A DNA stretch of 64,000 bases from Phaeospirillum sp. (lineage in GTDB: Bacteria > Pseudomonadota > Alphaproteobacteria > Rhodospirillales > Magnetospirillaceae): NCBI GenBank assembly GCA_030651575.1, contig JAUSFB010000027.1:248001-312000 (forward strand), written 5' to 3'. The notes below the pieces were generated by a model, which had not been told where the DNA came from, searched no databases, and saw only the letters and a program-made list of their open reading frames with translations. The translations under genes were made by a program, and so were the position numbers. The number at the start of each line of letters is the position of its first letter. Position 1 is the stretch's first letter. Shown piece after piece: positions 3,722-16,088 of this stretch.

Positions 3722-5336
3722 GGTCATCCTCAAGCGCTTTCGGCAGCCAGCATGTTACTGACGCACCGCCCCGGTCGTCATTGGCGATTTCAAGGTCACC
3801 GCCATGGGCCGTGAGGATGGCTTTGGCGATGGGCAGGCCGAAGCCGCTGCCGGTCTGCTTGGTCGAAGCAAACAGCGCATGGCCCGCCTGAATGATGTCG
3901 TCGGGGAAGCCGGGACCGCTATCGCGGATGCAGAGGATGACTTTGCCATCCTCCTCCTTCGCCTCGACACGCAACCGCTTTCCGACAACCGGCATGGTCG
4001 CCATGGCTTCGCAGGCATTGCGGACGAGGTTCACCGCCAACTGCTGAAGCGTGGCGCGGTCGCCCAAGACGTTGGCCGAACATCCGGCCACGTCCATGGT
4101 CGTCGCCACGCCGTTGTCGTCGCACATCTGCTGCAACAGCGGCAGAACGTCGGTCAGGACGAGGCGGAACGACAGCAGCTCACGCGAGCCCGCCTGTTGA
4201 TCAAGGCGGGATTGGTTGGCCGTGATGATCCCGCTCACGCGCTCGACCTCGCGCACGATGCGTTCTGTCACTTGCGGGAGTTCACCGGGGTCGCCGCCGC
4301 CACGTTGGGCCAGGGCGTGAAGCCCCTGCGCATAGGCCAGAACGCAGGACAACGGCTGATTGATCTCGTGAGCGAGCTTGGCGGCGGTTTCTTGGGTGGT
4401 GAAGTGGCGATATGCCTTGTCCAAGGCTGTTTCCTGACGGCGTAATCGCCGCAATGCTCCTTCGCGATCCTCCACTGCACCGGCAATGATCAGGCTGAGA
4501 TAGCCGATGGACAGCATGAAGTACGGCGCACCAGCCAGAACCTCCTGGTTCGGGTCCAGCAGGCTCGCCAGCGTGATCGAGGCATTGGCAAGCAAGGTGG
4601 ACAGTGCCGCGCCAAGCACTCCGAACGCGACGGCGTTCCACGCCACCGGCAGCATGACGAAATAGGAGAAACGCCCTTGGTCGTGGCCGAGCAGCAGTTC
4701 GGCGACTTCCAGATAGAGGATCAGCGCCGCCGCCAGCAGCCCCAGAGCCAGCACACCGAAACTGCGGTTGCGGATATAGGTTCGCCATGGCCGGTTCAGC
4801 AGCAGCAGCGCCGGGGTCAAGGTCACGATGCCCAGTGCATCGCCAATGAAGAACCGCGCCACCATCGAGCCGTAATCCGACCACGGGATTGCGCCATCGG
4901 CGCAGAAGTTCAACACGTTGATCGCGGCCACCGCCGACGGGGTGGCGAGTGAGGCGATGATAAAGCGGTGGATATGGGCTTGTTTGCTGAGGTCGAGCGT
5001 ACCCACGGCGCGTCGCAGCAACGTGATGCCGAGGACATAGCCGGTTGGTGGGATCAGCCACGACAGCACCGCACCGGGATTGGTCGTGGCATACGGCCCC
5101 AGCAGTACCACGTAGCCGATGCCGACATAGGCCAAGGGCCACAATCGGGGAAAACTGAGAAGGAAGGCGAAGGTCAAGCCCGCAGGCGGATACCACACGC
5201 TGACGCCGGGGCCGACATTCATCGCCACCGCCGCTTTATGGCTCAGCACCCAGGCGAGGGGATAGAGCGCAACAACGGCCATCTGCGGCGTGGTGAGCTC
5301 CAGAGCGGCAAGTTTCACCGATATCAGTTTCCGCAA
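3711..5336 (-). CDS. MASE1-domain sensor histidine kinase
   Basis: The N-terminal half is a multi-helix membrane region of MASE1 type (PGVSVWYPPAGLTFAFLL near the start, then about eight hydrophobic helices). The C-terminal half is a histidine kinase: H-box HEINQPLS, N-box NLVRNACEAM, G1 DSGPGF and G2 GSGFGLPIAKAI. The H-box form (HEINQPL) is that of the DctB/FixL class. It would autophosphorylate and pass phosphate to the overlapping FixJ-type regulator. The start is uncertain: a TTG at 5336 has GAGG five bases upstream and puts the first helix close to the N-terminus, whereas the open frame extends to an ATG at 5483 without a ribosome binding site. No periplasmic sensor domain is visible, so the signal probably comes through the membrane region. 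Confidence 0.88.
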   Translation of the reverse strand: MRKLISVKLAALELTTPQMAVVALYPLAWVLSHKAAVAMNVGPGVSVWYPPAGLTFAFLLSFPRLWPLAYVGIGYVVLLGPYATTNPGAVLSWLIPPTGYVLGITLLRRAVGTLDLSKQAHIHRFIIASLATPSAVAAINVLNFCADGAIPWSDYGSMVARFFIGDALGIVTLTPALLLLNRPWRTYIRNRSFGVLALGLLAAALILYLEVAELLLGHDQGRFSYFVMLPVAWNAVAFGVLGAALSTLLANASITLASLLDPNQEVLAGAPYFMLSIGYLSLIIAGAVEDREGALRRLRRQETALDKAYRHFTTQETAAKLAHEINQPLSCVLAYAQGLHALAQRGGGDPGELPQVTERIVREVERVSGIITANQSRLDQQAGSRELLSFRLVLTDVLPLLQQMCDDNGVATTMDVAGCSANVLGDRATLQQLAVNLVRNACEAMATMPVVGKRLRVEAKEEDGKVILCIRDSGPGFPDDIIQAGHALFASTKQTGSGFGLPIAKAILTAHGGDLEIANDDRGGASVTCWLPKALEDDHGR

Positions 5337-5655
5337 GATGTCCTCACGCAACGGTGTGCTACTCCGAGCTAACACGAGCCGGACGAAAGGGAAAGGGCGA
5401 TGGACGCGCGCAACCGTCGTGCGTGACGGCAGTTCATTGGGTTCTATGTAAAATGCAATATGTTGGCGACAGTAATTACGCAAGCTATTTCAATGATGAG
5501 CCTCGGCATTCCTGTCTGCATCGGTGATGGGTGCGCGGCTTGGCTTTTCGCGTCCCGCGTTGGCCTGCGCGCTTCTCGTGCGGAAAAAATATTTAGAAAT
5601 ACATATTTTATTATGTTTCTGCTAACTTGTTGAAATAACGCACGGATCAACGCCG

Positions 5656-5683
5656 TTGCGATATTGAGCAATCCGCGTATATA
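5656..5683 (+). promoter_or_regulatory. possible sigma-70 promoter of the recombinase gene
   Basis: TTGCGA (5656-5661) and TATATA (5678-5683) are separated by 16 bp in an AT-rich gap of about 385 bp before the recombinase start at 5724. The rest of the gap shows no gene. Confidence 0.35.
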
Positions 5684-5723
5684 ACAATTTGCGCGCCTGA
5701 GTTGATTTCTCAAGGTTTTAGCC

Positions 5724-6299
5724 ATGAAACAGGCCAAGGTTCTGAGCGAGAACGAGCTGAAGCGAGTGCTGGCGGTGATCGCCGGACGCAAGCATGCCGC
5801 CCGCAACCGTGCCGCCCTCATGCTGAGCTTCTATGCCGGGATGCGGGTTGGTGAGATCGCTGCCCTGACGGTAAAGGACGCGCTGGACGCGGACGGGCGG
5901 GTCAAGGATCAAATCCTGCTGCGCGGCGCGATCACCAAGACCGGCGAGGCCAGGACCGTCTTCGTCGGCGACAAGCTGCGCAAGGAACTGGAGCGCTATG
6001 CCGGGTCGCTGAAGCAAGCCGACCGCGATGCCCCGTTCCTGATGACCCAGAAGCACACCGCCTTCTCCCCCAACACGCTGTGCCAGTTGTTCGCCCGCCT
6101 CTATGCCCTGGCCGGGATCGACGGGGCGAGCAGCCACAGCGGACGGCGCTGGTTCATCACCCGGCTGGCGCACAGCGGCGTCAGCGCCAAGGTGATCATG
6201 ACCCTGGCCGGTCACCGCCACCTCAGCACCACCCAGCGTTATATCGAGGTCAACGACGAGATGATGCGGGCGGCGGCCCAAGCGTGCGGGACACGCTGA
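5724..6299 (+). CDS. tyrosine recombinase/integrase, catalytic domain only
   Basis: The 191-aa protein carries the full catalytic set of tyrosine recombinases: Arg41 in AGMRVGE, Lys near 72, His138 and Arg141 in SHSGRR, His164 in LAGHRH and the nucleophile Tyr173 in TTQRYI. It lacks the usual N-terminal core-binding (SAM-like) domain, so it is about 100-150 residues shorter than a XerC/D-type or phage integrase. It opens the mobile island. AAGG lies 9 nt before the ATG. The following gene overlaps its 3' end, suggesting a small operon. It may act alone on a short site like other minimal recombinases, or need a partner; which is unknown. Confidence 0.85.
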   Translation: MKQAKVLSENELKRVLAVIAGRKHAARNRAALMLSFYAGMRVGEIAALTVKDALDADGRVKDQILLRGAITKTGEARTVFVGDKLRKELERYAGSLKQADRDAPFLMTQKHTAFSPNTLCQLFARLYALAGIDGASSHSGRRWFITRLAHSGVSAKVIMTLAGHRHLSTTQRYIEVNDEMMRAAAQACGTR

Positions 6300-6865
6300 T
6301 CGATGAGCCGATCCAACGCGCGTGGCCGCTGATCCAGGCTTGCATGAGCCAAGGCTTTCACCGCGAACTGTCGGAGTACCTGGAAGCTGGGCTGATCGAT
6401 GCGGTCAGGGCCAAGGAGCAGGCGCTGTGGAATGCGCTGAGCGATGAATACGCCATTTGCTTCGACACCCTGCCCCCAGGTGTCCGCGTCGCCATCATTG
6501 AGACGCTGGAGGCAGAAGGGCTGCCCAGCACCGATCTCTCGGCCTTGGCCCGTAACCATTACGGCACGGACAGCTTCGTGTGGGGGCCGGTGGAGTCCCA
6601 GGCCATCACATTGGCCTTCGTGCGCAAACGCATGGAACTGGAAGCCGAGACCCAGGCCGTTGCACCGCTAATCTCGCTGCTGGAGCAGTCCCACGCCTTC
6701 ATCGCCCACGAGAACGTGTTCTGGATATCGGAGCCGCCGAGGTTCATCAGCGAGAACACCATGCACTACGGCGACGGCTGGACCGTCACCGTCAGCCCGG
6801 AATTGCTGGACTGGTCGCGGCGGTTGTCGCTGAGCTCTCTCTTCGGCGATGCCGTCTTGCCATAG
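6284..6865 (+). CDS. hypothetical protein overlapping the recombinase
   Basis: I do not recognise the family. The frame opens with a GTG at 6284 inside the last codons of the recombinase gene (VRDTLIDEPIQRAW...) and gives 193 aa; an ATG at 6344 (MSQGFHREL) is an alternative start. The protein is acidic and rich in Trp and aromatic residues towards the C-terminus (WISEPPRFISENTMHYGDGWTVTVSPELLDW), with no membrane segment. The overlap and orientation suggest translation coupled to the recombinase and joint transfer with it. Confidence 0.6.
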   Translation: MRDTLIDEPIQRAWPLIQACMSQGFHRELSEYLEAGLIDAVRAKEQALWNALSDEYAICFDTLPPGVRVAIIETLEAEGLPSTDLSALARNHYGTDSFVWGPVESQAITLAFVRKRMELEAETQAVAPLISLLEQSHAFIAHENVFWISEPPRFISENTMHYGDGWTVTVSPELLDWSRRLSLSSLFGDAVLP

Positions 6866-6874
6866 GGGACCGCA

Positions 6875-7270
6875 ATGGCCGTGCTGTATCTCGGGATCGA
6901 GGGCGTTTTGCTGTGCGGCAATGGCACATTGGCACCCCATGCGGGGGAGTTCCTGCGCTGGACCATCGAGCGCCACACGCCGTTCTGGCTGACCTCGTGC
7001 ACGCAGGCCGGGATCGTGTCGGCGTTCAAGGGCTGCGCTGCGTGGGACGCGGAACTTGAAGCCTTGTTTCGGGCCGTGACAACTCTGCCTTGGACGGGGA
7101 CCAAGACCGCCGCCATCGACATGGACGTCGACTTCTACTGGATCGATGCCAACCCGATGCCAGCAGACCACCACGACCGCCGTGCCCGTTGGGTCGAGGT
7201 CGATGCGAACGTGTTTCCCGGTGCACTGCTGGCCGCAATGACGGTGGTCGATGTGCTGTGTGGAGGGTGA
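6875..7270 (+). CDS. small HAD-like domain protein
   Basis: The 131-aa protein starts MAVLYLGIEGVLL and continues with LRWTIERHTPFWLTSC, a pattern resembling the small HAD-like domains in which a beta-strand with an acidic motif (normally DxDGV) is followed by a Thr/Ser motif. Here the first Asp is replaced (GIEGVLL), so ordinary phosphatase chemistry is doubtful. It lies 9 bp after the preceding gene on the same strand and is likely in the same operon as the recombinase. It may be a binding or regulatory HAD relative; this assignment is an inference from the fold-like pattern. Confidence 0.6.
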   Translation: MAVLYLGIEGVLLCGNGTLAPHAGEFLRWTIERHTPFWLTSCTQAGIVSAFKGCAAWDAELEALFRAVTTLPWTGTKTAAIDMDVDFYWIDANPMPADHHDRRARWVEVDANVFPGALLAAMTVVDVLCGG

Positions 7271-7291
7271 CCTCCGCTTGGGCGACGGCCC

Positions 7292-7831
7292 CTATAAGAA
7301 GGTCGCCTGCTGGAAAACGGCAGGCAATTTGGTCGGAGCCTTGACCCTCAACTGCTTGTTTACGTTGAAGCGTCCAAAGACAACCTCGATTGCCGAGGGA
7401 GAAACGCCGAACTCACCAGCCAGAAAACGCACCATGTGATCCGTCGCCCGGCCCAGGCGGGGTGCCGCCGTCACGCTGATATTGAGCTGTGCCCCTTTGG
7501 GTTTGCCGATGGCATCGCGGCTGGCGCTGGGCTTGCCCAGAACATTGATGACCAGCGTATCGTCCTCCCACCAGAAGAATGGGGCATTCTCATCGGCAAT
7601 CGATCCCGGCTTTGCCCGTGGCCGCTTCATGTGGGATTCCGCTCCAGAATTTCGACGCGCTCGCGCACCCTGCCAGCTTGCTATAGGCCCGTCTGGCGGG
7701 GATGTGCAATCCGCGAGGTTCCGCCAGAACCCGATATCGGTTTCCAGAAAGGCGATGCGCTGAGCCGACTGCCGGGCAGCCTCGTCCGGTGTGAGGTCTG
7801 GGATATCACGCGGATTGGTCTGTCGCGCCAT
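7292..7831 (-). CDS. DUF167 (YggU-like) domain protein
   Basis: The C-terminal 75 residues match the DUF167/YggU family pattern: LVINVLGKPSASRDAIG, then LNISVTAAP, ATDHMVRFLAGEFGVSPSAIEVVFG and NKQLRVKAP. These are small alpha/beta proteins of unknown function. About 100 extra residues precede the domain (MARQTNPRDIPDLTPDEAA...), longer than the usual 90-110 aa of the family. The ATG at 7831 has GAGGT at a good distance; an internal ATG at 7630 would give just the domain. It converges with the HAD-like gene at its 3' end (21 bp gap). Confidence 0.7.
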   Translation of the reverse strand: MARQTNPRDIPDLTPDEAARQSAQRIAFLETDIGFWRNLADCTSPPDGPIASWQGARARRNSGAESHMKRPRAKPGSIADENAPFFWWEDDTLVINVLGKPSASRDAIGKPKGAQLNISVTAAPRLGRATDHMVRFLAGEFGVSPSAIEVVFGRFNVNKQLRVKAPTKLPAVFQQATFL

Positions 7832-7960
7832 TTCATACCTCGCGGCCCTATGGGGCCTCAGTAATAATAGCACGCGCGGGCTGGCCGGGGAGAGCAGGCC
7901 CAAAGATCAGCGATAAATGCGGAAATTCATCAAGTGATATCAATGGGCTGCCCTGCCGGT

Positions 7961-8143
7961 TCAGCGTGTCGGCAGCATTGGGTGCTGGGGCACGGTTTGG
8001 GGCGTCGATGGGGGCGGATTTCGCCGACTTGCTGCCGGGCGGGTCGCGGCCACCGCCATCGCGATGACCTCCCGCAACGTCACCTGCTGCCCCTTGAACC
8101 CAACCTCCACCATCTTATCCAATAGGTAATCATCATCCTGCAT
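7961..8143 (-). CDS. small hypothetical protein (60 aa)
   Basis: The frame has a strong ribosome binding site (AAGGAG, 7 nt before ATG). The N-terminal part (MQDDDYLLDKMVEVGFKGQQVTLREVIAMAVAATR) looks like a folded helical segment, followed by a Pro/Arg-rich tail. It is transcribed divergently from the gene at 8227, and the 83-bp gap between them contains an 8-7-8 palindrome. The function is unknown; its size and setting would suit an antitoxin-like or regulatory peptide, but no family is recognised. Confidence 0.55.
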   Translation of the reverse strand: MQDDDYLLDKMVEVGFKGQQVTLREVIAMAVAATRPAASRRNPPPSTPQTVPQHPMLPTR

Positions 8144-8176
8144 GGCCGTCTCCTTTTTGCCGCTGCCTATGCAGCT

Positions 8177-8199
8177 ATTTATGCGGACGGGGCATAAAT
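8177..8199. promoter_or_regulatory. palindromic operator candidate in a divergent promoter region
   Basis: ATTTATGC and GCATAAAT are perfect reverse complements separated by 7 bp (GGACGGG). They sit between two divergent small genes (8143 leftward, 8227 rightward), the usual place for an autoregulatory repressor site. Confidence 0.55.
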
Positions 8200-8226
8200 A
8201 CGGTGAACACCGACGGAGGGGATGGG

Positions 8227-8526
8227 ATGATCCTGGGAGAGGCCTACAACGTGCTGCGGACCATCGGCATGACCGACAACCAGTACGAATTCAGCCGGAT
8301 ATGGCTGGGGCGATGCCGCAGCTACATGAGCAGCACGATAGCCCGGCAGCGCCGTCCTTGCGCCGACGCGCTACTCACCTTGGCCGCGAACCTCAGCCGG
8401 GCATCGGCACGGTTCCGGCAGAGCTATCAGCATGCCCAAGCCAACATGCTGGACGACCTCGGCGGCAAGGTCTGGGCTGAAGTGATGGGACGCGCCAAGA
8501 TCAGCCATTCTTTGCCATTGAGTTAA
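8227..8526 (+). CDS. small HTH-like protein (DUF6626-type)
   Basis: The 99-aa protein begins MILGEAYNVLRTIGMTDNQYEFS and continues RIWLGRCRSYMSSTIARQRRPCADALLTLAANL. This arrangement resembles the helix-turn-helix-like DUF6626 proteins found in Magnetospirillum and relatives. I chose the ATG at 8227, with GGAGGGGATGGG upstream, over a GTG at 8203. The location next to a palindrome in a divergent intergenic region suggests a DNA-binding repressor of its own promoter. The family is recalled from pattern only and the DNA-binding role is inferred. Confidence 0.6.
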   Translation: MILGEAYNVLRTIGMTDNQYEFSRIWLGRCRSYMSSTIARQRRPCADALLTLAANLSRASARFRQSYQHAQANMLDDLGGKVWAEVMGRAKISHSLPLS

Positions 8527-8595
8527 ATTGATCGCGCCATCCCTGACCGCGCTAAATAGTATGGGAGAACGGCAATGAACGATGTCAACTAATTC

Positions 8596-8614
8596 TATAA
8601 TCACGGCATATAAT
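8596..8614 (+). promoter_or_regulatory. two candidate -10 boxes upstream of the helicase leader
   Basis: Perfect TATAAT hexamers occur at 8596-8601 and 8609-8614. No strong -35 is visible at 16-18 bp (GTCAAC at 8584-8589 is the closest). A start near 8620 would give a leader of about 90 nt that begins at the foot of the long hairpin. Confidence 0.45.
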
Positions 8615-8627
8615 ATGCGTGGTCATT

Positions 8628-8705
8628 AGCCCTGAGCCAATTTCTTGTTCACTGCCGTCTCCCACCGGCGAACAACGGCTCAGGGCTATTTTATTTGTGG
8701 GAGAC
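8628..8705 (+). ncRNA. structured leader RNA: long hairpin whose loop pairs with the helicase SD
   Basis: The outer stem AGCCCTGAGCC (8628-8638) pairs with GGCTCAGGGCT (8677-8687). Inside it, TTGTTC (8645-8650) pairs with GAACAA (8670-8675), and GCCG (8654-8657) pairs with CGGC (8666-8669). The eight-base apical loop TCTCCCAC (8658-8665) is the exact complement of GTGGGAGA (8697-8704), which contains the ribosome binding site of the helicase gene starting at 8710. This geometry is an H-type pseudoknot or a loop/SD kissing control, comparable in principle with plasmid rep leaders. All pairings are seen in the sequence; the regulatory role is inferred. Confidence 0.65.
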
Positions 8706-8709
8706 AATT

Positions 8710-10737
8710 ATGAAGACAATCTATTACGTATCGGGTGGCTGCGGATCGGGCAAGACCGAAGCGGCGATCACCTACATGCATCACCTCTGCGAGATGAGCG
8801 GCAAGAACGTGCTGCTCGTGCAGCCGACCAAGTTCCTGCTGAAGCAAACCAGCGAGCGCATCCAGCAGCAGCATCCCAAACAGAATGTCGTCCTTATCCA
8901 CGGCGAGAACGGGGAAGATGACGTGTCGGTGAAGGCTCGCATCATGGCGTTCATGCGTGGGCACCACCGAGGCGTCGTTCTGGGCATCACCCATGCGGCA
9001 TTCCTCGGTATGAAGTCGTGGCACCGAGACGGCGATTGGCATTTGATCATGGACGAAATCCCTGCCGCTGACGGCACGTTCCAACTCAACGTGCCCGACA
9101 CCTTCCGCTGGTTCATCGACGATTTCGAAATTGAAAGCGGCCACGGCAATTACTTCCGTATGAGCCGGGCAGTTGGGCATCAGCGTCGCTTCGACGACGT
9201 GGCGGCGAACAAGGAGCGGGATGATCTGCTCGCGGTTCTGCGTGACCTCTATGCCAAGGTCAACAGCAAGGCGTATGACGTGTGGGTTCGGCGCGATTGC
9301 TGGAACCGTCTCGGCAAGCAGCGGTTCGACGGCCAAGGGCGGCATGGTGCATTGATCTGCCACTGGGCATTGCGGCCCGAGGTGTTCGATGCCTGGGACA
9401 GACCGACGATCATGGGGGCCAACTTCACCAGTTCCATGCTGTATTTGCTGTGGCAGAACAAGGTCGAGTTCGCGCCGCATCCGAACATCAAGCCGAGGTT
9501 CGAGCATTATCCCCGTGAGACCAGCGAGCGGTTGACCCTCCATTACATCTCGGAACGGCGCAACAGCGTGAGCATGCAAAAGCGGTTGGATAAGCGATTC
9601 CACACCGCCGTCAACGACGCCATCTCCAAGCATTGGGGCACGGAGCCCTTCCTGTGGGTCGGCAACAACGCCAAAGGGGAAGACTTCATCGGCAGCGATG
9701 CCGGTGCCCGTATTCCCGCCATTTGCCATGGCCGTAACGATTGCGTGGATCACACCCGTATTGCCTTCGTCGCCGCGCTCAACGACACCCCGCCGCACTT
9801 CAAGTTCTTGGAGGTGGTGCATGGCATTCAGGCTGACGTCGTGCATCAGGCCAAGTCGCAGGAGGTGATCCATCAGGCGATCATGCGGACGGCGTTGCGG
9901 GATGCCGCGTCGAGCAAGCGGGTCGAGGTGCTGGTCGTGGATAAAGAGACAGCCCTTCAGTTGAAGGCGCGCCTATTCCCGGCGGCGCGCATCGAGGGGC
10001 CGGACGAAATCGATCCGGCGTTCATTGAGCGGGACATGAAGGCGCGTGAGTGCGCCAGGACCAAACCGGCATTGACCCCCGTCGAGCGGAATGCGAAGGC
10101 GCGTGAGGCCAAGAAACGGCTCCAGGACCAGCAACTCCGCCTGTCATTATTGCTGGCCGGAGGCCACAACACGTTGTGTGTTGATCAAGACCAGACACAT
10201 GACAGGTGTTACGATTATGGCCTTAATAATATAGTCGAATTCGTAACACCTGGGATTTCGGCTTCGTTCATTTCAACCAAGACAAGTCCATATGTCCTGA
10301 ACGAGCACATCACCAATTGGAACGAAGTCCGTGCGCTCTTGCGTGACGCATTCGCGCACGCCTACAAGGCGAAGGACGACAATTTGCTGATGTCCGGGGC
10401 CAAGTATGATCCATGGCGCAGCCCCGACACCCGTCGTGGCCTCGCCAACGTCGAATACGTGACGTTCATGCAACTGGACTTCGATGGCGGCGACCTGGGC
10501 GTCGATGAACTCCATGTGGTGCTCGACGACTTCGCATGGCTCGCCTTCAACTCGTTCAACAACGATCTCGGCGAGGGCCAACTCCGCTATCGCGTATTCA
10601 TCCCCTTGCGGCATCCAGTCACGGCGGACTATTACCACCGCCTGTGGGATGCGCTGGCGGCGCGCATCGAGCAATACGGCTTCACCGTGGGGAAACGGGT
10701 TCCAGGCAAACGCTTCACCATTCGTCGGCCAGCATGA
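8710..10737 (+). CDS. SF2-type helicase with C-terminal primase-like remnant
   Basis: The 675-aa protein has Walker A GGCGSGKT (residues 9-16), a motif Ia-like VQPTKFLLKQT, Walker B IMDEIP (Asp115/Glu116) and, further on, HQAIMRTALRD, which fits a motif VI arginine finger region. This is a DEAD/DEAH-like helicase core. The last 170 residues look different: a LDFDGG acidic motif followed by LRYRVFIPLRHPVTADYYHRLW resembles primase-polymerase (AEP-type) domains of plasmid and phage replication proteins, but the expected His motif is absent (FNSFNN) and the protein stops soon after. Its C-terminus overlaps the convergent DUF3768 gene by 23 bp, consistent with a truncation. The ATG at 8710 is used because GGGAGAC precedes it. 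It is probably a replication or mobilisation protein of the island. Confidence 0.75.
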   Translation: MKTIYYVSGGCGSGKTEAAITYMHHLCEMSGKNVLLVQPTKFLLKQTSERIQQQHPKQNVVLIHGENGEDDVSVKARIMAFMRGHHRGVVLGITHAAFLGMKSWHRDGDWHLIMDEIPAADGTFQLNVPDTFRWFIDDFEIESGHGNYFRMSRAVGHQRRFDDVAANKERDDLLAVLRDLYAKVNSKAYDVWVRRDCWNRLGKQRFDGQGRHGALICHWALRPEVFDAWDRPTIMGANFTSSMLYLLWQNKVEFAPHPNIKPRFEHYPRETSERLTLHYISERRNSVSMQKRLDKRFHTAVNDAISKHWGTEPFLWVGNNAKGEDFIGSDAGARIPAICHGRNDCVDHTRIAFVAALNDTPPHFKFLEVVHGIQADVVHQAKSQEVIHQAIMRTALRDAASSKRVEVLVVDKETALQLKARLFPAARIEGPDEIDPAFIERDMKARECARTKPALTPVERNAKAREAKKRLQDQQLRLSLLLAGGHNTLCVDQDQTHDRCYDYGLNNIVEFVTPGISASFISTKTSPYVLNEHITNWNEVRALLRDAFAHAYKAKDDNLLMSGAKYDPWRSPDTRRGLANVEYVTFMQLDFDGGDLGVDELHVVLDDFAWLAFNSFNNDLGEGQLRYRVFIPLRHPVTADYYHRLWDALAARIEQYGFTVGKRVPGKRFTIRRPA

Positions 10738-11041
10738 TAGTCAGCACACGGACGGTAACCGCCGGGTCGGCGGGATCGGGAGAGGCGAAGGTCATTTCGC
10801 GGTCGTAGGCGTCGATCTTGAAGATGATGCGATGCTCGCCAACGGTCATCACGGCGCAGTTATGCTCATGGTACGGATCATTGTCCGGCGTGAAGTCGGA
10901 AAACGCGGCGACGGCAGCAATGATCTCCGTGACGGCATCCTGGTCGAGGGCTTGGATGCCCTGGGTGATCATCACCCTGCCACCGATGTGGTGGCGGCGT
11001 AGTCGGTCGTTCAGTTCGGCGATCTTGGAGGCTTGGTCCAT
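10715..11041 (-). CDS. DUF3768 family protein
   Basis: The 108-aa protein matches the DUF3768 pattern: RVMITQGIQAL, then VAAFSDFTPDNDPYHEHN, FKIDAYDREM and the C-terminal SPDPADPAVTVRVLTIMLADEW. The family is common on alphaproteobacterial plasmids and islands and has no known function. Here EHNC replaces the more usual EHDFG. It is convergent with the helicase gene and overlaps its 3' end by 23 bp. The family assignment is confident. Confidence 0.85.
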   Translation of the reverse strand: MDQASKIAELNDRLRRHHIGGRVMITQGIQALDQDAVTEIIAAVAAFSDFTPDNDPYHEHNCAVMTVGEHRIIFKIDAYDREMTFASPDPADPAVTVRVLTIMLADEW

Positions 11042-11045
11042 GCGG

Positions 11046-11082
11046 CTCTCGCTTCGGCGAGGGCGCGTGTCCGGGATGGGCG
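11046..11082. repeat. dispersed hairpin repeat A, copy 1 (37 bp)
   Basis: The unit begins with a small hairpin, CTCGC-TTCG-GCGAG, and continues GGCGCGTGTCCGGGATGGGCG. A copy with 35 of 37 identical bases lies at 13973-14009. It spans the start region of the DUF3768 gene. Confidence 0.7.
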
Positions 11083-11272
11083 TTGCGCCCGTTGCGCTGC
11101 TATAGCGGTGGGCCGCGCGAGACGTCTACGGGCGTGGCGTGGCGTGGAGTGGTGCGCTACCAACGCATGGAGTATCCGCTGAGTACGGCTTTACCTTTCT
11201 GGCACACCACCCTCGGCAATGCTATTTTCTTTAAACGGTCCCAACGTAAAAGGGGGGGCTGGAAAGGAAGAC

Positions 11273-12427
11273 ATGCAGGGAACCGGGAAGGGCAGCCAAA
11301 GTCGACAGCCACGGCCATTCGTCTTTGATTACGCAAAACTGTGTCCCGGTGACATCGTGCTTACGCGTGACACTGGCTTGCGCAGCCAGATAATCCAGCG
11401 GGCAAGTGGTGGCCGCTTTAGCCATGCCCTGATTTGCACGACACCGCCAACTTTGACGGAAGCCCGCCTGGAGGGGGTTCGGAACATATCCGCCCGCAAT
11501 GTCTACATATCCGACATTGTGAATGTCGCAGTCCTACGGCTTCGCGGGCAAGCTGGTGATATAAGAAAAGCAGCGTCTGATGCCGCCTCATACGCCACAT
11601 CCTTTTTTTCCGCAGCTTACGACCTTCCACAAGCACTTGCCTCGGTCACAAATAAGATCCTGGACGAAGGAAATCCTGGCGTATTCTGTTCGGAGCTTGT
11701 TGCAAAGTCCTACAAGCATGCGGGTATTGATCTCGTTGACGGACTAACGCCGGACAACATCACCCCAAATGATATCGCTAGTAGCATCAAGTTGATGGAG
11801 ATTACACACGAGGTTTGCAGCCCCTGCCCCTCCGATTTCGACCCCGGTACACTTGAGCCGATTGATGGAGTAGTCGGTGACAACGTTGCAAGGGAATCAT
11901 CCCTCGAGCTGAGGCGTCTATTTGAGGACACCAGGGCCGCATGGGAACCCTATTACGGAGAAATTCGGCCACGTAACATTTGGGACGTCGTCGGCCTTAT
12001 CGGAATGGGTACCGTAAAAGACATCAAGGACCTTGATCGAGTGCGAGCGATTGACGCTATCCTCGCAGAGGCCATCCGAACGTCCAAGTTATGGTCAATT
12101 GTTGAAGCGATGGCAAAGAATGACGGGAAAGCCGTAGCCCACCAACTTTCCATTTGGCAGAGCCAACTTGCCAATGCGGGTAACAGCCCCAACTTGCTAG
12201 GCCTGCTTGCTCAAACAATCTCCGATGATCTGGAATTGGTTTCAGGGCAAATAAACAGCAGAGAGCCAGAGGCAATCACATTTCAAGAGATTGGAGATAA
12301 GGGCGGGATGCAAAGCCCTGGCGAGCTCGCAAAATTTCAACGCGCCATCGTGCATCTGTACAAGCTGCGGCACAATGTTGAGGCTGATCTTTACCAGCAG
12401 GTCTTAGCCAAATTGGGGAAAAACTAG
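11273..12427 (+). CDS. permuted NlpC/P60-like (YiiX/C92-type) cysteine protease or amidase family protein
   Basis: In the 384-aa protein the first 150 residues carry the permuted papain-like pattern: LCPGDIVLTRD, SQIIQRASGGRFSHA with the candidate catalytic His51, and later FCSELVAKSYKHAGI with Cys139. These proteins hydrolyse amide or acyl bonds on peptides or lipids. The remaining 230 residues form an alpha-helical domain (for example RRLFEDTRAAWEPYYGEIRPRNI) that I do not recognise. There is no signal peptide, so the protein looks cytoplasmic. I chose the ATG at 11273 because AAGGAAG precedes it; an ATG at 11219 has no such site. It lies just upstream of the BrnT/BrnA pair on the same strand, inside the island; a defence or toxin role is possible but unproven. 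Confidence 0.7.
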   Translation: MQGTGKGSQSRQPRPFVFDYAKLCPGDIVLTRDTGLRSQIIQRASGGRFSHALICTTPPTLTEARLEGVRNISARNVYISDIVNVAVLRLRGQAGDIRKAASDAASYATSFFSAAYDLPQALASVTNKILDEGNPGVFCSELVAKSYKHAGIDLVDGLTPDNITPNDIASSIKLMEITHEVCSPCPSDFDPGTLEPIDGVVGDNVARESSLELRRLFEDTRAAWEPYYGEIRPRNIWDVVGLIGMGTVKDIKDLDRVRAIDAILAEAIRTSKLWSIVEAMAKNDGKAVAHQLSIWQSQLANAGNSPNLLGLLAQTISDDLELVSGQINSREPEAITFQEIGDKGGMQSPGELAKFQRAIVHLYKLRHNVEADLYQQVLAKLGKN

Positions 12428-12446
12428 CCCCGGCAACGGCATATTC

Positions 12447-12493
12447 TGTACATACGGAGAATCTTGACGCAGCCACTTTTTTGTATGTACAAT
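12447..12493 (+). promoter_or_regulatory. brnTA promoter with flanking inverted-repeat operator
   Basis: TTGACG (12464-12469) and TACAAT (12488-12493) are separated by 18 bp and form a strong sigma-70-type promoter. TGTACATAC (12447-12455) and GTATGTACA (12483-12491) are exact reverse complements; the second half overlaps the -10 box, so a bound repressor would block polymerase. BrnA antitoxins are known to autorepress their operons. The ATG of brnT begins 7 bp after the -10 box, so the mRNA may be leaderless. Confidence 0.75.
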
Positions 12494-12500
12494 AATCCGC

Positions 12501-12773
12501 ATGAAGATCACCTTCGACCCCGCCAAGCGAGACGCCACCCTAAACAGCCGAGGGCTGGATTTCGCCGACGCCGCCGAGGTGTTTGCCGGGCCGGTGTTCG
12601 AGTTCACCGATGATCGCTTCGATTATGGGGAGACCCGGATCGTCACGGTCGGTCATCTCGCCGGACGCATGGTGATCTTGATCTGGACGCAACGTGCCAA
12701 CGCACGCCACGTCATTTCGATGAGGAAAGCCAATGACCGGGAAAAAGCGCGCTTTGGGCAGCGATTTGACTAA
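12501..12773 (+). CDS. brnT: BrnT family toxin (ribonuclease)
   Basis: The 90-aa protein has the BrnT pattern: MKITFDPAKRDATLNSRGLDFADAAEVF near the N-terminus, DYGETRIVTVGHLAGRMVILIWT in the middle and ISMRKANDREKARF at the end. BrnT is a RelE-fold type II toxin that cleaves RNA and is neutralised by BrnA. There is no ribosome binding site before the ATG, which sits only 7 bp after the -10 box, so initiation on a leaderless mRNA is likely. The toxin gene precedes the antitoxin, the usual brnTA order, and brnA begins inside its 3' end. Confidence 0.93.
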   Translation: MKITFDPAKRDATLNSRGLDFADAAEVFAGPVFEFTDDRFDYGETRIVTVGHLAGRMVILIWTQRANARHVISMRKANDREKARFGQRFD

Positions 12774-13020
12774 GGTCGATGCTCATGTCATCCAGCCCGA
12801 GGAATACGACGAAATCCCCGAGCTGACCGACGAGATGTTCGCTCGCGCGGACTATATCGTCGGCGGCAAGGTGGTGCGACGCGGACGTCCGCCGAAGGAG
12901 GCCCCAAAGGTTCCGGTCACCCTTCGGCTGGACGCGGACCTTGTCGAGCGCCTGCGGGCTGAGGGCCAGGGCTGGCAGTCGCGGGTCAATGAGACACTGC
13001 GCAAGGCGGCGGGTCTGTAG
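12733..13020 (+). CDS. brnA: BrnA family antitoxin
   Basis: The 95-aa protein ends with a ribbon-helix-helix-like DNA-binding segment, VPVTLRLDADLVERLRAEGQGWQSRVNETLRKAAGL, preceded by the acidic toxin-binding region YDEIPELTDEMFARADYIVGG and the RRGRPPKEAPK linker typical of BrnA. It neutralises BrnT and represses the operon. The ATG at 12733 lies 41 nt inside brnT and has AGGAAAG upstream, so the two are translationally coupled. The inverted repeat over the promoter is its probable operator. Confidence 0.93.
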   Translation: MTGKKRALGSDLTKVDAHVIQPEEYDEIPELTDEMFARADYIVGGKVVRRGRPPKEAPKVPVTLRLDADLVERLRAEGQGWQSRVNETLRKAAGL

Positions 13021-13026
13021 GGCGGC

Positions 13027-13113
13027 GCCACATCCAAAGCCCGAACGACCCGCGCATTTTTGCTGCGCGAATACCCGCCATGACTTCTATTCTGTCGCCG
13101 TCATGTTCCCGCC
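13027..13113. repeat. dispersed hairpin repeat B, copy 1 (about 87 bp)
   Basis: The core of 27 bp (13043-13069) is identical to 14084-14110 and contains a hairpin, CGCGCA...TGCGCG. Similarity extends on both sides (GCCACATC upstream; CTGTCGCC and GTTCCCGC downstream). This copy reaches into the 3' end of the membrane-protein gene; copy 2 lies about 1 kb to the right. Confidence 0.7.
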
Positions 13114-13869
13114 TTCCGAACCCTGGGCTTGGTCATCGTCGGCTTGTTTGCGGTTGGGATTGTGAGCGCCCTTGCCATGGCTGTCTCCCTTCACTGGTGG
13201 GGCGTCCAGCGAGGCACAAAATAGGCGCTCTCTTATCCGCACGTTGTCATGTGCGTGTTTTGATATCTTTAGGGCAAAAGCGGCAGAAAACAGAAACGGC
13301 CAAAGCCTGTCTGCCATTCTCAAGAAAGAAGTCATCGCTCTAGAAAGCCAATCCCGAAAAATTTTGGGAAGTGTGGCACTTAATGCGGATTCAGCATCAA
13401 TATCGATAAATTCTGTTCGCTCTAGGTAGGGGAAAATCGGGCTACGTAGGTGGCCGACCACTTCGTCGACAATGTATTGATCGTCTCTATCCAATGATGA
13501 TGGGGCAAAACGTGATATAGATACGTAATATGGATCGTTCGTTGCTATGAATAGTGCCATATTTTTGCTGACATCACCTAGCCACGCACATAGATCATTT
13601 GGCTTATTTTCATGATGCTTGCACCTTTGCGTTTTGTGTAATTCAGTCGTTAAAATGACGATGTCACTCTTTGTCTTTAATGCCTCCATATCTTTGGTGT
13701 GGATGGCTGCCGTTTGCCGTTCTTCGGCAGCGTTAAGGAAAACGACAATGGAGAAGGCCGCGATCAGAGTGGAGCTAATATCCACCCACCAGCTTCCATT
13801 TTTTACATATCTAACTATCGCCAGACCGGCGGCCAGTGTGGCGATGAAGGCAGCCATGCACGTCAGCAT
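13087..13869 (-). CDS. hypothetical membrane protein
   Basis: The 260-aa protein has two N-terminal hydrophobic helices (MLTCMAAFIATLAAGLAIV and STLIAAFSIVVFL) followed by a long soluble region with several Cys/His residues (RCKHHENKPNDLCAWL) and a third hydrophobic stretch near residues 180-200. The polar C-terminus ends in GNMTATE. The ATG at 13869 has AAGGGG upstream; a GTG one codon earlier is possible. The region is less GC-rich than the core genes. It lies between the two copies of repeat B, and its last 27 bases lie within copy 1. I do not recognise a family, and the position beside brnTA says only that it belongs to the island. Confidence 0.6.
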   Translation of the reverse strand: MLTCMAAFIATLAAGLAIVRYVKNGSWWVDISSTLIAAFSIVVFLNAAEERQTAAIHTKDMEALKTKSDIVILTTELHKTQRCKHHENKPNDLCAWLGDVSKNMALFIATNDPYYVSISRFAPSSLDRDDQYIVDEVVGHLRSPIFPYLERTEFIDIDAESALSATLPKIFRDWLSRAMTSFLRMADRLWPFLFSAAFALKISKHAHDNVRIRERLFCASLDAPPVKGDSHGKGAHNPNRKQADDDQAQGSEGGNMTATE

Positions 13870-13972
13870 CACACACCCCTTTCATATTGACGGAGCGGCG
13901 AGGCGGCTCCCCCTTCGAGTTCGACTAGCTGAGAAGAAAAGTAACTTCAACGGCAGATTGCTGGTGCAGGGA

Positions 13973-14009
13973 CTCTCGCTGTGGCGAGGGCGCGTGTCCG
14001 GGATGGGCG
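13973..14009. repeat. dispersed hairpin repeat A, copy 2 (37 bp)
   Basis: It has 35 of 37 bases identical to 11046-11082. The two differences fall in the loop, CTCGC-TGTG-GCGAG, so the stem is conserved, which suggests that the hairpin itself matters. Confidence 0.7.
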
Positions 14010-14066
14010 CGACACCCATTGTGTCAGTATTGAGCCTTGATCTGTGTGAGCCATCCGAATGATCGT

Positions 14067-14154
14067 GCCACATCAGCAAGACTGAACGACCCGCGCATTT
14101 TTGCTGCGCGGAAAGCCCCCACAGTTTCCGTCCTGTCGCCATCACGTTCCCGCT
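14067..14154. repeat. dispersed hairpin repeat B, copy 2 (about 88 bp)
   Basis: The core 14084-14110 is identical to 13043-13069, with weaker similarity on both sides. Both copies have the same orientation. Confidence 0.7.
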
Positions 14155-14250
14155 ACGATCCGCATAATGCGGAAGCCTTGAGTTTTCGCAGTTCAATTCG
14201 CATAGTTTAAGAAGGCGTATTTTTCAACGCGAGAACAAGTCGTTAGTATC

Positions 14251-14307
14251 GCGCCTAACGTTTTCGTAATGCGCGGGCCGATGGTTCGAATCCTTTCGCC
14301 GGCACAA
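14251..14307 (+). pseudogene. 3' half of a tRNA-Thr(CGT), probable att-site remnant
   Basis: The sequence from TTTTCGTAA (an anticodon-loop-like segment with CGT at 14265-14267) through a T-arm, GGTTCGAATCC (14283-14293), to an acceptor end, CGCCGGCA (14297-14304), followed by CAA, corresponds to the 3' half of an alphaproteobacterial tRNA-Thr. No matching 5' acceptor (GCCGGCG) or D-arm precedes it, and the anticodon stem and T-stem are imperfect. Integrative elements that use tRNA genes leave such 3' fragments, and an integrase C-terminal fragment starts 140 bp downstream. Confidence 0.5.
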
Positions 14308-14444
14308 TTTTCTCCTAAGAAAACAAACAGTTAGCGTAGCACCTTGACAGGCGCTCGCTGCTGTTTTGCAATTCGCAGTGTTTTCGCAGTCCGTGCGCGT
14401 GTGTCGCATAAATAAACCGCAACTATTGCGCTGTGGAGGGCGCA

Positions 14445-14684
14445 ATGAGCCGACCGTCAAAACAAGATTATCGCTATCATGACGACAACGGCGACGCCTT
14501 TACGCCCTATTCACTGCGCCATACCTGGGCGACGCTGAAGCTGAACGCCGGAATGGATGTGCGGCTGGTGGCGCTCAATCTCGGTACCAGCCCCGAAATG
14601 GTCCACCGCCATTACGGCCACGGCAACACCAAGAGCCGGGCGTCAGAGTTCGCCGATGTTTGGTTGACCAAGGAGGAGGAGTGA
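14445..14684 (+). pseudogene. integrase C-terminal fragment
   Basis: The 79 codons contain only the last part of a tyrosine recombinase: YSLRHTWATLKLNAGMDVRL with the Arg-x-x-His-type motif, then LGTSPEMVHRHYGH with His and the candidate nucleophile Tyr. The N-terminal domain and the first catalytic Arg are missing. The ATG at 14445 has GGAGGG upstream, so a short protein could still be made, but it cannot be a complete recombinase. It marks an old element boundary next to the tRNA remnant. Confidence 0.7.
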
Positions 14685-14905
14685 GAGCGGGGCCAATCCA
14701 TCGGGCTGGCTTGGATTATCCCTGATCCGACATCATGGGGAAGGAGGCGACGCCTTTCAAAGCCGAGGCTGCGTGATCGAGTAAATCTATGCATGATTGC
14801 GCGATATGTCTTCTTGCGCTACTTTCCGTTCGTGATGAACCGTTGTTCAAGCTTGATCCCTCCCGTGGGCATCAGTGGTGACGGCGCGACGGGGGACTGA
14901 GTGGC

Positions 14906-16088
14906 GTGCAGGAAGATCTATTTGAGCCAGCAACCTTCGTGCTCCGTCCTGCGCTGATCGGGCCGCACGGTGTTACGCCGTTCTTCCTGATCGGCTGCGG
15001 TCGTAATAAGCGGGCTAAAACCACGCAGGCGAGCGACCTCTATGTCTCGGACAGGTTTCGCTCAAGCATAGACCTTGCTCGTCGGCTCGGAGCGCCGCAT
15101 GCGATCCTATCGGGTAAGCACGGTGTTGTTGCAGATGAGGCCGTGCTCCAGCCCTATGATCTAAATATCGCCGACCTACCCCGCACCGAGCAGCGCCTCT
15201 GGGCTAACGAAGCGCTCGACGCACTTCGTGTCCGTGCCGATGGGCGCAGAATCACGCTACTCGCGGCCCCCGAGTACACATCACTTTTGAGCGAGATTAA
15301 CGAGGCCAGCGCTACTCCGCTTGATATTATCGCACCATGGGCGTTGCTGGAGCCGCCAGATGTTTCAGTGTGGCTGGTCGAGGCTGAGCGCATGGCGGTG
15401 TGCATCCGCGACCTCAGTCTTCTCTATTCATGGATCGACTCTATTCATGGATCGACGGGAAGCGCAGCAAGGGGAGTGTATTCCCGTTTCGAAGTTTGGG
15501 TACGCAACCGGTGCCGAAACGGGGTGTCTACGTGTTTCTCGACCAACAGGAACCCAATTTTTAGGCGTGAAGCCACGCATCGTGCGAATCGGCACCCATG
15601 CCGTGAGCTTCGGCTCGAAAGCAACACTACGTGGGCGGTTGCGAAATCACCTTGGCCCCGCTCACGAAATCGGCAACCACCGCGGATCGATCTTTCGCCT
15701 GCATGTTGGTCGGGCGATGCTGGAGGCAGCCGCAGGCCATGCGAGCCTGCCAAGCTGGGGGGAGGGCCAAAACGCTGTTCCCAGCGTCAAAGCCTTAGAG
15801 GCAGAACATGAGCTAGCAGTATCGCGTTATCTCCAAGAGTTGGAGGTCGTGCTGATCGAGATCGATGACGAACCGGGAAAGGACAGCGTGCGCGCCAGCG
15901 TCGAAGCGCAGTTAATCGCGCTATGCAGTGAAGCGATGCTGCCTATCGACTGCCCGACAGGCGACTGGCTTGGCCTTAAATCCGTGGGGGCGCCAATCCG
16001 GCAATCCGGGCTATGGAATATCCGAGGGGCGGGAGGGAAATATGACCCAGTGGGGGCCGGTTCGGTCAGTTCGATTGTCGAGCCGTAG
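14906..16088 (+). pseudogene. disrupted DUF6884 / GIY-YIG-like protein gene
   Basis: The first 170 codons (from GTG 14906) read as a DUF6884-type domain: FFLIGCGRNKRAK, HAILSGKHGVVADEAVLQPYD and ITLLAAPEYTSLL. The frame is then broken by a perfect 17-bp tandem duplication (two copies of TCTATTCATGGATCGAC at about 15422-15455). Removing one copy restores a frame running to PKRGVYVFLDQQEPNF, a GIY-like motif. A second break lies in a run of five T near 15557-15561: one extra T would join it to PRIVRIGTHAVSFGSKATLRGRL...NHRGSIFRLHVGRAML, the YIG-like half, which stays open to the TAG at 16086. The original would be about 390 aa, a DUF6884 domain followed by a GIY-YIG nuclease-like domain. As it stands it is inactivated by two lesions. 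Confidence 0.75.

Follow-up and report, generated by a model that had tools for sequence, protein, structure and literature searches.

A candidate RNA attenuator in the leader of a helicase-primase-like gene from a presumed mobile island of Phaeospirillum

The leader of the helicase-primase-like gene

The window considered here, a 64,000-nucleotide stretch of DNA from Phaeospirillum sp. (Magnetospirillaceae; contig JAUSFB010000027.1), contains a helicase-primase-like gene of 675 amino acids on the + strand (8710..10737), and the subject of this analysis is the leader in front of that gene. A sequence-only reading of this DNA had placed an RNA element before a helicase-primase-like gene in a chromosomal island; comparison of sequences indicates that the leader is very likely a conserved RNA element, and the island around the gene is presumed to be mobile.

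Assignment of the gene product as a helicase-primase derives from weak matches, which include helicase profiles of the DEAD/ResIII type at the N-terminus and a primase profile at 574-654, and the protein also matches the phage families phrog_2467 and phrog_31024. A sequence search of the Protein Data Bank (PDB) gave no match. A structure model of the homologue in locus L004, on a contig of the metagenome-assembled genome Magnetospirillum sp. 64-120, was poor (predicted local distance difference test score 55) and had the XPD helicase (E 2.5e-4) and the AEP domain of S-2L PrimPol (4e-4) as its best PDB matches. An alignment of five proteins retains a GxGKT/GKT motif, a DE-P motif and LDxDxG. 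The L004 protein is 70% identical to that of the window and has 835 amino acids, so the copy in the window is without its 3' end; it is short by ~160 C-terminal residues relative to L004, and a DUF3768 gene lies behind it on the other strand.

The leader contains a long hairpin, and the three nested stems proposed for it are present exactly where they had been placed. The outer stem (8628-8638/8677-8687, 11 bp) is even 12 bp by sequence and RNA folding when T8627-A8688 is included, with its 5' arm at 8627..8638 and its 3' arm at 8677..8688, and it encloses inner stems of 6 bp (8645-8650/8670-8675) and 4 bp (8654-8657/8666-8669) below an apical loop, TCTCCCAC (8658..8665). RNA folding of the leader recovers this hairpin: the minimum free energy of 8600-8730 is -42.6 kcal/mol versus a shuffle mean of -28.9 (z -3.77), none of 200 shuffles is equally stable, and the isolated stem-loop has an energy of -32.4 kcal/mol. 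The leader hairpin is therefore real and not a product of chance. On the 3' side of the outer stem follow, in order, a T-rich tail, TTTTATTT (8689-8696), the Shine-Dalgarno (SD) region, GTGGGAGAC (8697-8705), a 4-nt spacer and the ATG at 8710. Because of its T-rich tail the hairpin resembles an intrinsic terminator; a simple terminator scanner reported none, since it is limited to loops of 3-8. In Rfam, no family was found for the window leader, where the sole match (mir-1756) was far under its threshold, and a search with 16 loci gave no gathering-level match.

At 81%, the identity of the leader (8540-8712) in L004 and the window is above the 75.5% of a mostly coding DNA match. Both arms of the outer stem are identical in L004, and the loop and SD core are unchanged as well. 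By an alignment reading L004 loses two of the ten inner-stem pairs, with no double change. The predicted fold of L004 contains an equivalent inner hairpin of 7 + 4 bp in a shifted position, which indicates that the inner hairpin as such is kept. A small predicted hairpin at 8600..8623, upstream of the main one, also has letters that are mostly kept in L004.

Pairing between the loop and the 5' end of the leader

A further stretch complementary to the hairpin loop, absent from the sequence-only reading, lies at 8562-8582, directly after a TAAATA box. This segment A (8562..8582), the presumed 5' end of the leader, can form 19 pairs, with one bulge and one mismatch, with segment B (8645..8664), which consists of the inner 5' arm plus the loop and whose 3' part also pairs with the SD. 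In L004 the equivalent A:B helix has 20 contiguous pairs, G-U included. Comparison of the two leaders over 8645-8662 shows two A:B pairs in which both partners differ (G-C to A-U and U-A to C-G), three one-sided changes that yield G-U, a mismatch of the window that becomes a pair, and no pair lost. Of 1000 shuffles each, 5 matched the A:B duplex energy of the window and 1 that of L004.

More distant relatives were collected by homologue searches that included the genome of the window each time and found matches in 11 of 55 genomes of the family, 17 of 199 of the order, 5 of 385 of the class and 4 of 398 of the phylum, plus six loci on viral contigs; scanning viral contigs with the window protein or a 22-base leader pattern yielded no relative. 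The identity of these homologues is mostly 23-32%. Of 34 leaders taken, the 27 with a TAAATA box 110-200 nt upstream were retained (L045, L014, L018, L035, L048, L049 and L051 were excluded because they have no TAAATA at that distance) and grouped by eye into 16 lineages with one representative each. An automatic rule then defined A as the 35 nt after the box and B as the loop of the best stem with a T-rich tail.

For the 16 representatives, the longest perfect A:B complements were 7, 9, 11, 8, 4, 10, 10, 9, 8, 7, 7, 9, 5, 4, 5 and 4 nt. Complements of at least 7 nt occurred in 11 of the 16 own pairs and in 8 of 240 crossed ones, and none of 20,000 permutations equalled the sum of the own pairs, in a test that is automatic yet not blind to the idea, as the leaders were partly first spotted by eye. 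In L023 the automatic rule gave 4 nt, where a 6-nt loop match can be seen by eye. A test that makes no use of the hairpin gave p<0.05 in 13 of 19 leaders and a Fisher value of 2e-12 over the 16 representatives; in L050 and L064, which have a different layout, the match found in this way is the outer stem itself. These two belong with L057, L058 and L063 to a sister leader type in which A builds the outer stem.

The paired segments have little in common from lineage to lineage, as illustrated by the A/B pairs CGAGCCGCCAA/TTGGCGGCTCG (L002), GTCTTGGAAA/TTTCCAAGAC (L026), AACTTGCCGG/CCGGCAAGTT (L024) and GGCTTGCTG/CAGCAAGCC (L006). In L017, which is close to L006, the pair is GGTTTGCAG/CTGCAAGCC, and a T-A pair is swapped to A-T. 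A:B complementarity is retained across most lineages despite diverged letters, an architecture that is well supported by the comparison of sequences. Genomes that carry two such elements have differing A/B pairs, both the genome of the window (window and L002) and G034 (L006 and L015). Elements whose RNAs act in trans without cross-reacting would be expected to differ in this way, and the differences favor action in trans by a short terminated RNA.

As to how A might be presented, its exposure in a hairpin loop of its own was considered, is clearest in L002, L010, L023, L027, L030 and L046, and is not claimed as a general feature; a search for such a loop found none in the window, L006, L017, L024, L033 or L047. 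Within a single RNA, the hairpin fold of the window (-48.6 kcal/mol) lies close to a nested A:B fold (-44.8 kcal/mol), and in L004 the two differ by 0.6 kcal/mol.

The Shine-Dalgarno region, the hairpin tail and the promoter-like box

The complementarity between loop and SD, from which the analysis of this leader started, is borne out. The 8-nt match of 8658-8665 with 8697-8704 is perfect, and the pair G8657-C8705 extends it to 9 bp (8657-8665/8697-8705), so that the SD region can be regarded as a segment C (8697..8705, + strand) complementary to 8657-8665. L004 also has 9 bp, shifted by one base. As the loop and the SD core are unchanged there, this is conservation only and gives no covariation between loop and SD. 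Matches of at least 9 nt between the own loop and the stretch from hairpin to ATG were found in the window, L004, L027 (9 bp, reaching into the start codon), L050 and L064 (10 and 9 bp, loops TTTCTCCTCA and GTTCTCCTC), the loop regions of the last two being set by hand because the automatic rule chose another hairpin. This makes 5 of 17 leaders and 4 of 16 lineages; the remaining leaders have 2-7 nt, and crossed pairs reach at least 8 nt in 4 of 270. The full A-B-C layout is therefore seen in L027 and the clade of the window; L050 and L064 have B-C, and most of the remaining lineages show A-B only.

The loop/SD match behind the proposed pseudoknot holds for the window and is kept in its one close relative, and it is not general: 4 of 16 lineages have this pairing versus 11 of 16 for pairing with the leader 5' end. 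By sequence comparison, the core of the RNA element is the helix between loop and leader 5' end, not the loop/SD pairing. Where the loop/SD pairing does occur, it would be expected to hide the SD, one of the two roles (hiding or positioning) that had been offered for it, and not to position it.

These results bear on a purely translational alternative, in which the loop hides the SD in cis through the pseudoknot and A:B pairing frees it, with no termination and no trans-acting RNA. The 9-bp helices of the window, L004 and L027 and the 10- and 9-bp helices of L050 and L064 suit this self-repression, as does the otherwise open SD of the window (predicted paired probability 0.08), for which the loop would be the main cover. 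On the other side, 12 of 16 lineages are without loop/SD pairing, of which 7 nevertheless place the hairpin 15-24 nt from the ATG, and pairing of the SD with any other part of the leader, pseudoknots aside, averages 0.65 versus 0.67 in shuffled sequences over 18 leaders. We regard this alternative as rather unlikely. A general SD-hiding helix was likewise considered and rejected, given that SD pairing in these 18 leaders is no higher than in shuffles.

The same measurements apply to activation of the type described for IsrK of Gifsy-1, where a short RNA and a read-through mRNA arise from one promoter and the short RNA acts on its own mRNA (PMC4825925). By analogy, the short terminated RNA would open the read-through mRNA. 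Promoter, short RNA with its terminator and read-through mRNA follow one another as described for IsrK (PMC4825925), whose gene and layout differ from those here, and the SD is fully paired in the predicted folds of several leaders (for example L022, L026, L030 and L110). SD pairing is overall at the shuffled level and the SD of the window is open; we consider activation of this kind improbable.

The position of the hairpin and its tail would suit transcription termination. In 10 of 16 representatives the hairpin ends 15-24 nt upstream of the ATG (in L050 the distance is that of another hairpin, not the one with B); the distance is 37-78 nt in five and 6 nt in one. A tail with at least 5 T of 8 is present on the sense side in 10 of 16 lineages. 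On the antisense side such a tail occurs in 1 of 16 (L026), so a counter-transcribed RNA that ends there is not indicated; the suggestion that a small antisense RNA copying the hairpin would be the controller is therefore not favored, and the short sense transcript that would end at the tail is a simpler candidate for an RNA acting in trans. With strict limits (a perfect stem of 9 bp or more, 5 or more T in an 8-nt tail, 12-45 nt before the start) 6 of 23 lineages are selected versus none of the 206 mechanical open reading frame starts of the window (at least 100 amino acids), a count that leaves out the helicase gene itself because its mechanical start, TTG 8695, is only 6 nt behind the stem.

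The tail also bears on whether these inverted repeats act as DNA, as an origin or a primase loading site. They adjoin a replication gene whose protein has a primase-like domain, as such a site might; the strand-specific T-rich tail and the G-U pairs of A:B, which contribute to the 20-bp helix of L004, suit RNA instead, and we consider a DNA site very unlikely.

Upstream of segment A lies a box that resembles T4 late promoters, GCTAAATA (8551..8558, + strand), with 'a/gC' at -13/-12 and CTAAATAG at 8552-8559; its activity is a prediction. The T4 late box itself has the letters TATAAATA. T4 late promoters consist of an 8-bp TATA box and no -35 element, and phage Aeh1 has a late-promoter variant with a/gC at the first two positions (PMC2988020). 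TAAATA occurs within 230 nt of the start in 20 of 23 lineages versus 2.9 expected from mononucleotide shuffles, and ATAAATA occurs in 17 of 23 lineage leaders versus 0.9 expected. The box is TATAAATA in L026, L109, L110 and L111 and GATAAATA in seven other leaders, so by sequence a box of the T4 late type is present, with putative activity. No sigma-70 promoter was found at 8400-8800 on either strand.

A possible attenuator, its relation to known systems and the surrounding element

When these features are combined, the leader is probably a built-in RNA switch that limits copy number. The more specific proposal, that it is an RNA attenuator of a replication gene with a self-derived trans-acting RNA, is one to which the sequence evidence gives an about even chance. 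Transcription would start just after the TAAATA box, which would make segment A the extreme 5' end of the RNA. The polymerase would then produce the terminator-like hairpin that displays B and would mostly halt at the T-rich tail, releasing an RNA of ~130 nt, while rare read-through would give the helicase-primase mRNA with its SD directly behind the hairpin. Loop B of the short RNA could pair with A of a newly begun transcript and, in the window clade, with the SD of the read-through mRNA. Such feedback would hold the replication protein low, in proportion to the copy number of the element, and would exclude elements that share its loop. In a single RNA molecule, A:B pairing rivals the inner hairpin and may weaken the terminator, presumably giving an on state.

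Several observations weigh against this attenuator. Seven of the 34 leaders have no box at 110-200 nt and 5 of 16 lineages have no A:B match of at least 7 nt. The tail has fewer than 5 T in 6 of 16 (L022, L024, L027, L064, L029 and L031), with 3 T of 8 in L024 and L027. In the window alone, the longest perfect A:B match of 7 nt is not significant (p 0.114), and in L017 the A:B duplex energy is reached by 193 of 1000 shuffles and is not significant either. The nested A:B fold is 4.4-24.3 kcal/mol weaker than the hairpin in 10 of 12 other folded leaders, so that a cis antiterminator at equilibrium is doubtful there and is not claimed; in the other two it is weaker by 2.3 (L046) and 3.6 kcal/mol (L027). 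No comparable hairpin was seen by eye in the homologues of phages Atu_ph07, 44RR2.8t and SCTP-2 or of plasmid pMNOD04. A held-out set of nine loci gave support that is mixed. In L106-L108, which are identical, no box lies at 110-200 nt, and L112-L114 have no box and a match that falls inside longer reading frames, which leaves L106, L109, L110 and L111 as four distinct leaders. Among these, A:B was recovered by the automatic rule for L109 alone (7 nt), whose p value without the hairpin assumption is 0.164. In L110 and L111 a 9-nt match lies in the loop of a different hairpin (p 0.010 and 0.008), and L106 showed no A:B under either test.

For comparison with known systems, the CI RNA of P4 is a hairpin RNA. 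Among enterobacteria, P4, P1/P7 and Gifsy-1 are mobile elements controlled by RNA that comes from their own leaders (PMC4825925, PMC12197685). In P4 the replication genes are kept repressed through premature termination, and CI RNA pairs with seqA upstream of it and with seqC downstream (PMC4825925). The likeness to P4 consists of a mobile element, a replication-gene leader and a hairpin complementary to sites up- and downstream, so that the seqA-seqB-seqC order of P4 matches A-B-C here, which counts in favor of the attenuator (PMC4825925). Here too the leader precedes what weak matches suggest is a replication gene, with helicase and primase-like parts, and the A-B-C arrangement is found in the window, L004 and L027, whereas most other lineages have A:B only. 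The leaders differ from P4 in that no Rfam match or sequence relation was seen, that the hairpin has a terminator-like tail and lies beside the SD, that the promoter box is T4-late-like, and that the site downstream is the SD, found in some lineages only. Processing as in P4, with the hairpin excised as a stable RNA and termination occurring further on by way of A and C, would fit the A-B-C order of the window, L004 and L027, but the T-rich tail suggests an RNA end at the hairpin and most lineages are without C, which makes such processing quite unlikely.

The C4 RNA is co-transcribed with its target and is among the Rfam families. In P1/P7, C4 is an antisense RNA with complementary sequences in loops that acts around the ribosome binding site and separates related elements (PMC12197685). 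The loop complementary to a downstream ribosome binding site in 5 of 17 leaders is similar to this; the target here is a replication gene and not an antirepressor, the main partner is the leader 5' end, and these leaders have no Rfam match. In pT181 and pIP501 a terminator-like stem-loop directly precedes the rep start and an upstream complementary segment can compete with it (PMC5703833), an arrangement similar to that of the 10 of 16 representatives whose hairpin ends 15-24 nt from the ATG. The trans-acting RNA of those plasmids is counter-transcribed, whereas here there is no antisense tail at the hairpin, and the upstream segment here pairs mainly with the loop.

Replication control in IncB/IncL/IncI plasmids uses a translated leader peptide coupled to rep and a counter-transcribed antisense RNA. 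A coupled leader peptide was considered here and rejected, since the reading frame that opens at GTG 8619 is in register with the helicase gene in L004 but not in the window; the relation of leader frame to gene thus differs between the two, unlike the plasmid arrangement. Overall, the leader resembles self-encoded RNA control of the P4/C4/IsrK type by analogy and is no proven member of any of these groups. A literature search found no description of these leaders among the titles and abstract openings listed, with most subscription journals outside its scope.

If the proposed attenuator is correct, apparently the same logic operates on an unrelated helicase-primase family in Alphaproteobacteria and some viral contigs. 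The loop codes have fully diverged while the pairing is kept, so the leaders could supply naturally varied RNA attenuators that differ in pairing code, and offer a test of how co-resident mobile elements avoid cross-control. The T4-late-like box would tie these elements to helper phages. The elements might then be satellites that await a T4-type helper, whose late sigma factor (gp55 type) would read the replication gene while a self-made antisense RNA sets copy number and exclusion; we consider this a possibility that is more doubtful than probable, and that the elements respond to a T4-type helper is a guess. If the satellite reading is true, the loop code would amount to an incompatibility system that evolves fast and has no dedicated repressor gene. 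Gene 55 encodes the late sigma factor. T4-type phages, 44RR2.8t among them, carry homologues of the helicase part; the one in 44RR2.8t (L097) ends 290 bases before gene 55, and by eye the 44RR2.8t copy has no such leader.

Other features of the element can be placed beside these results. A DUF6626 gene lies just upstream of the leader (8203..8526, + strand), with ATAAATA at 8194-8200 before it. ATAAATA occurs three times in the 64-kb window versus 0.64 expected, a number reached by 3 of 100 shuffles. All three copies lie in the presumed element, at 8176-8182 (-), 8194-8200 (+) and 14408-14414 (+), and two are divergent between the DUF6626 gene and its neighbor. The same stretch contains a BrnT/BrnA toxin-antitoxin pair (12501-13020), and three families of direct repeats of 23-76 nt occur within 4500-15500.

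Small contigs with related genes showed no end overlap. One of them (L088, contig G672:C3, 4,652 bp) is plasmid-like, which is unproven, and has as main open reading frames the helicase-primase gene and, by eye, an apparent serine recombinase gene. The contigs of L089, L090 and L094 end in exact inverted repeats of 141, 95 and 117 bases, which may reflect linear elements, invertible segments or assembly effects.

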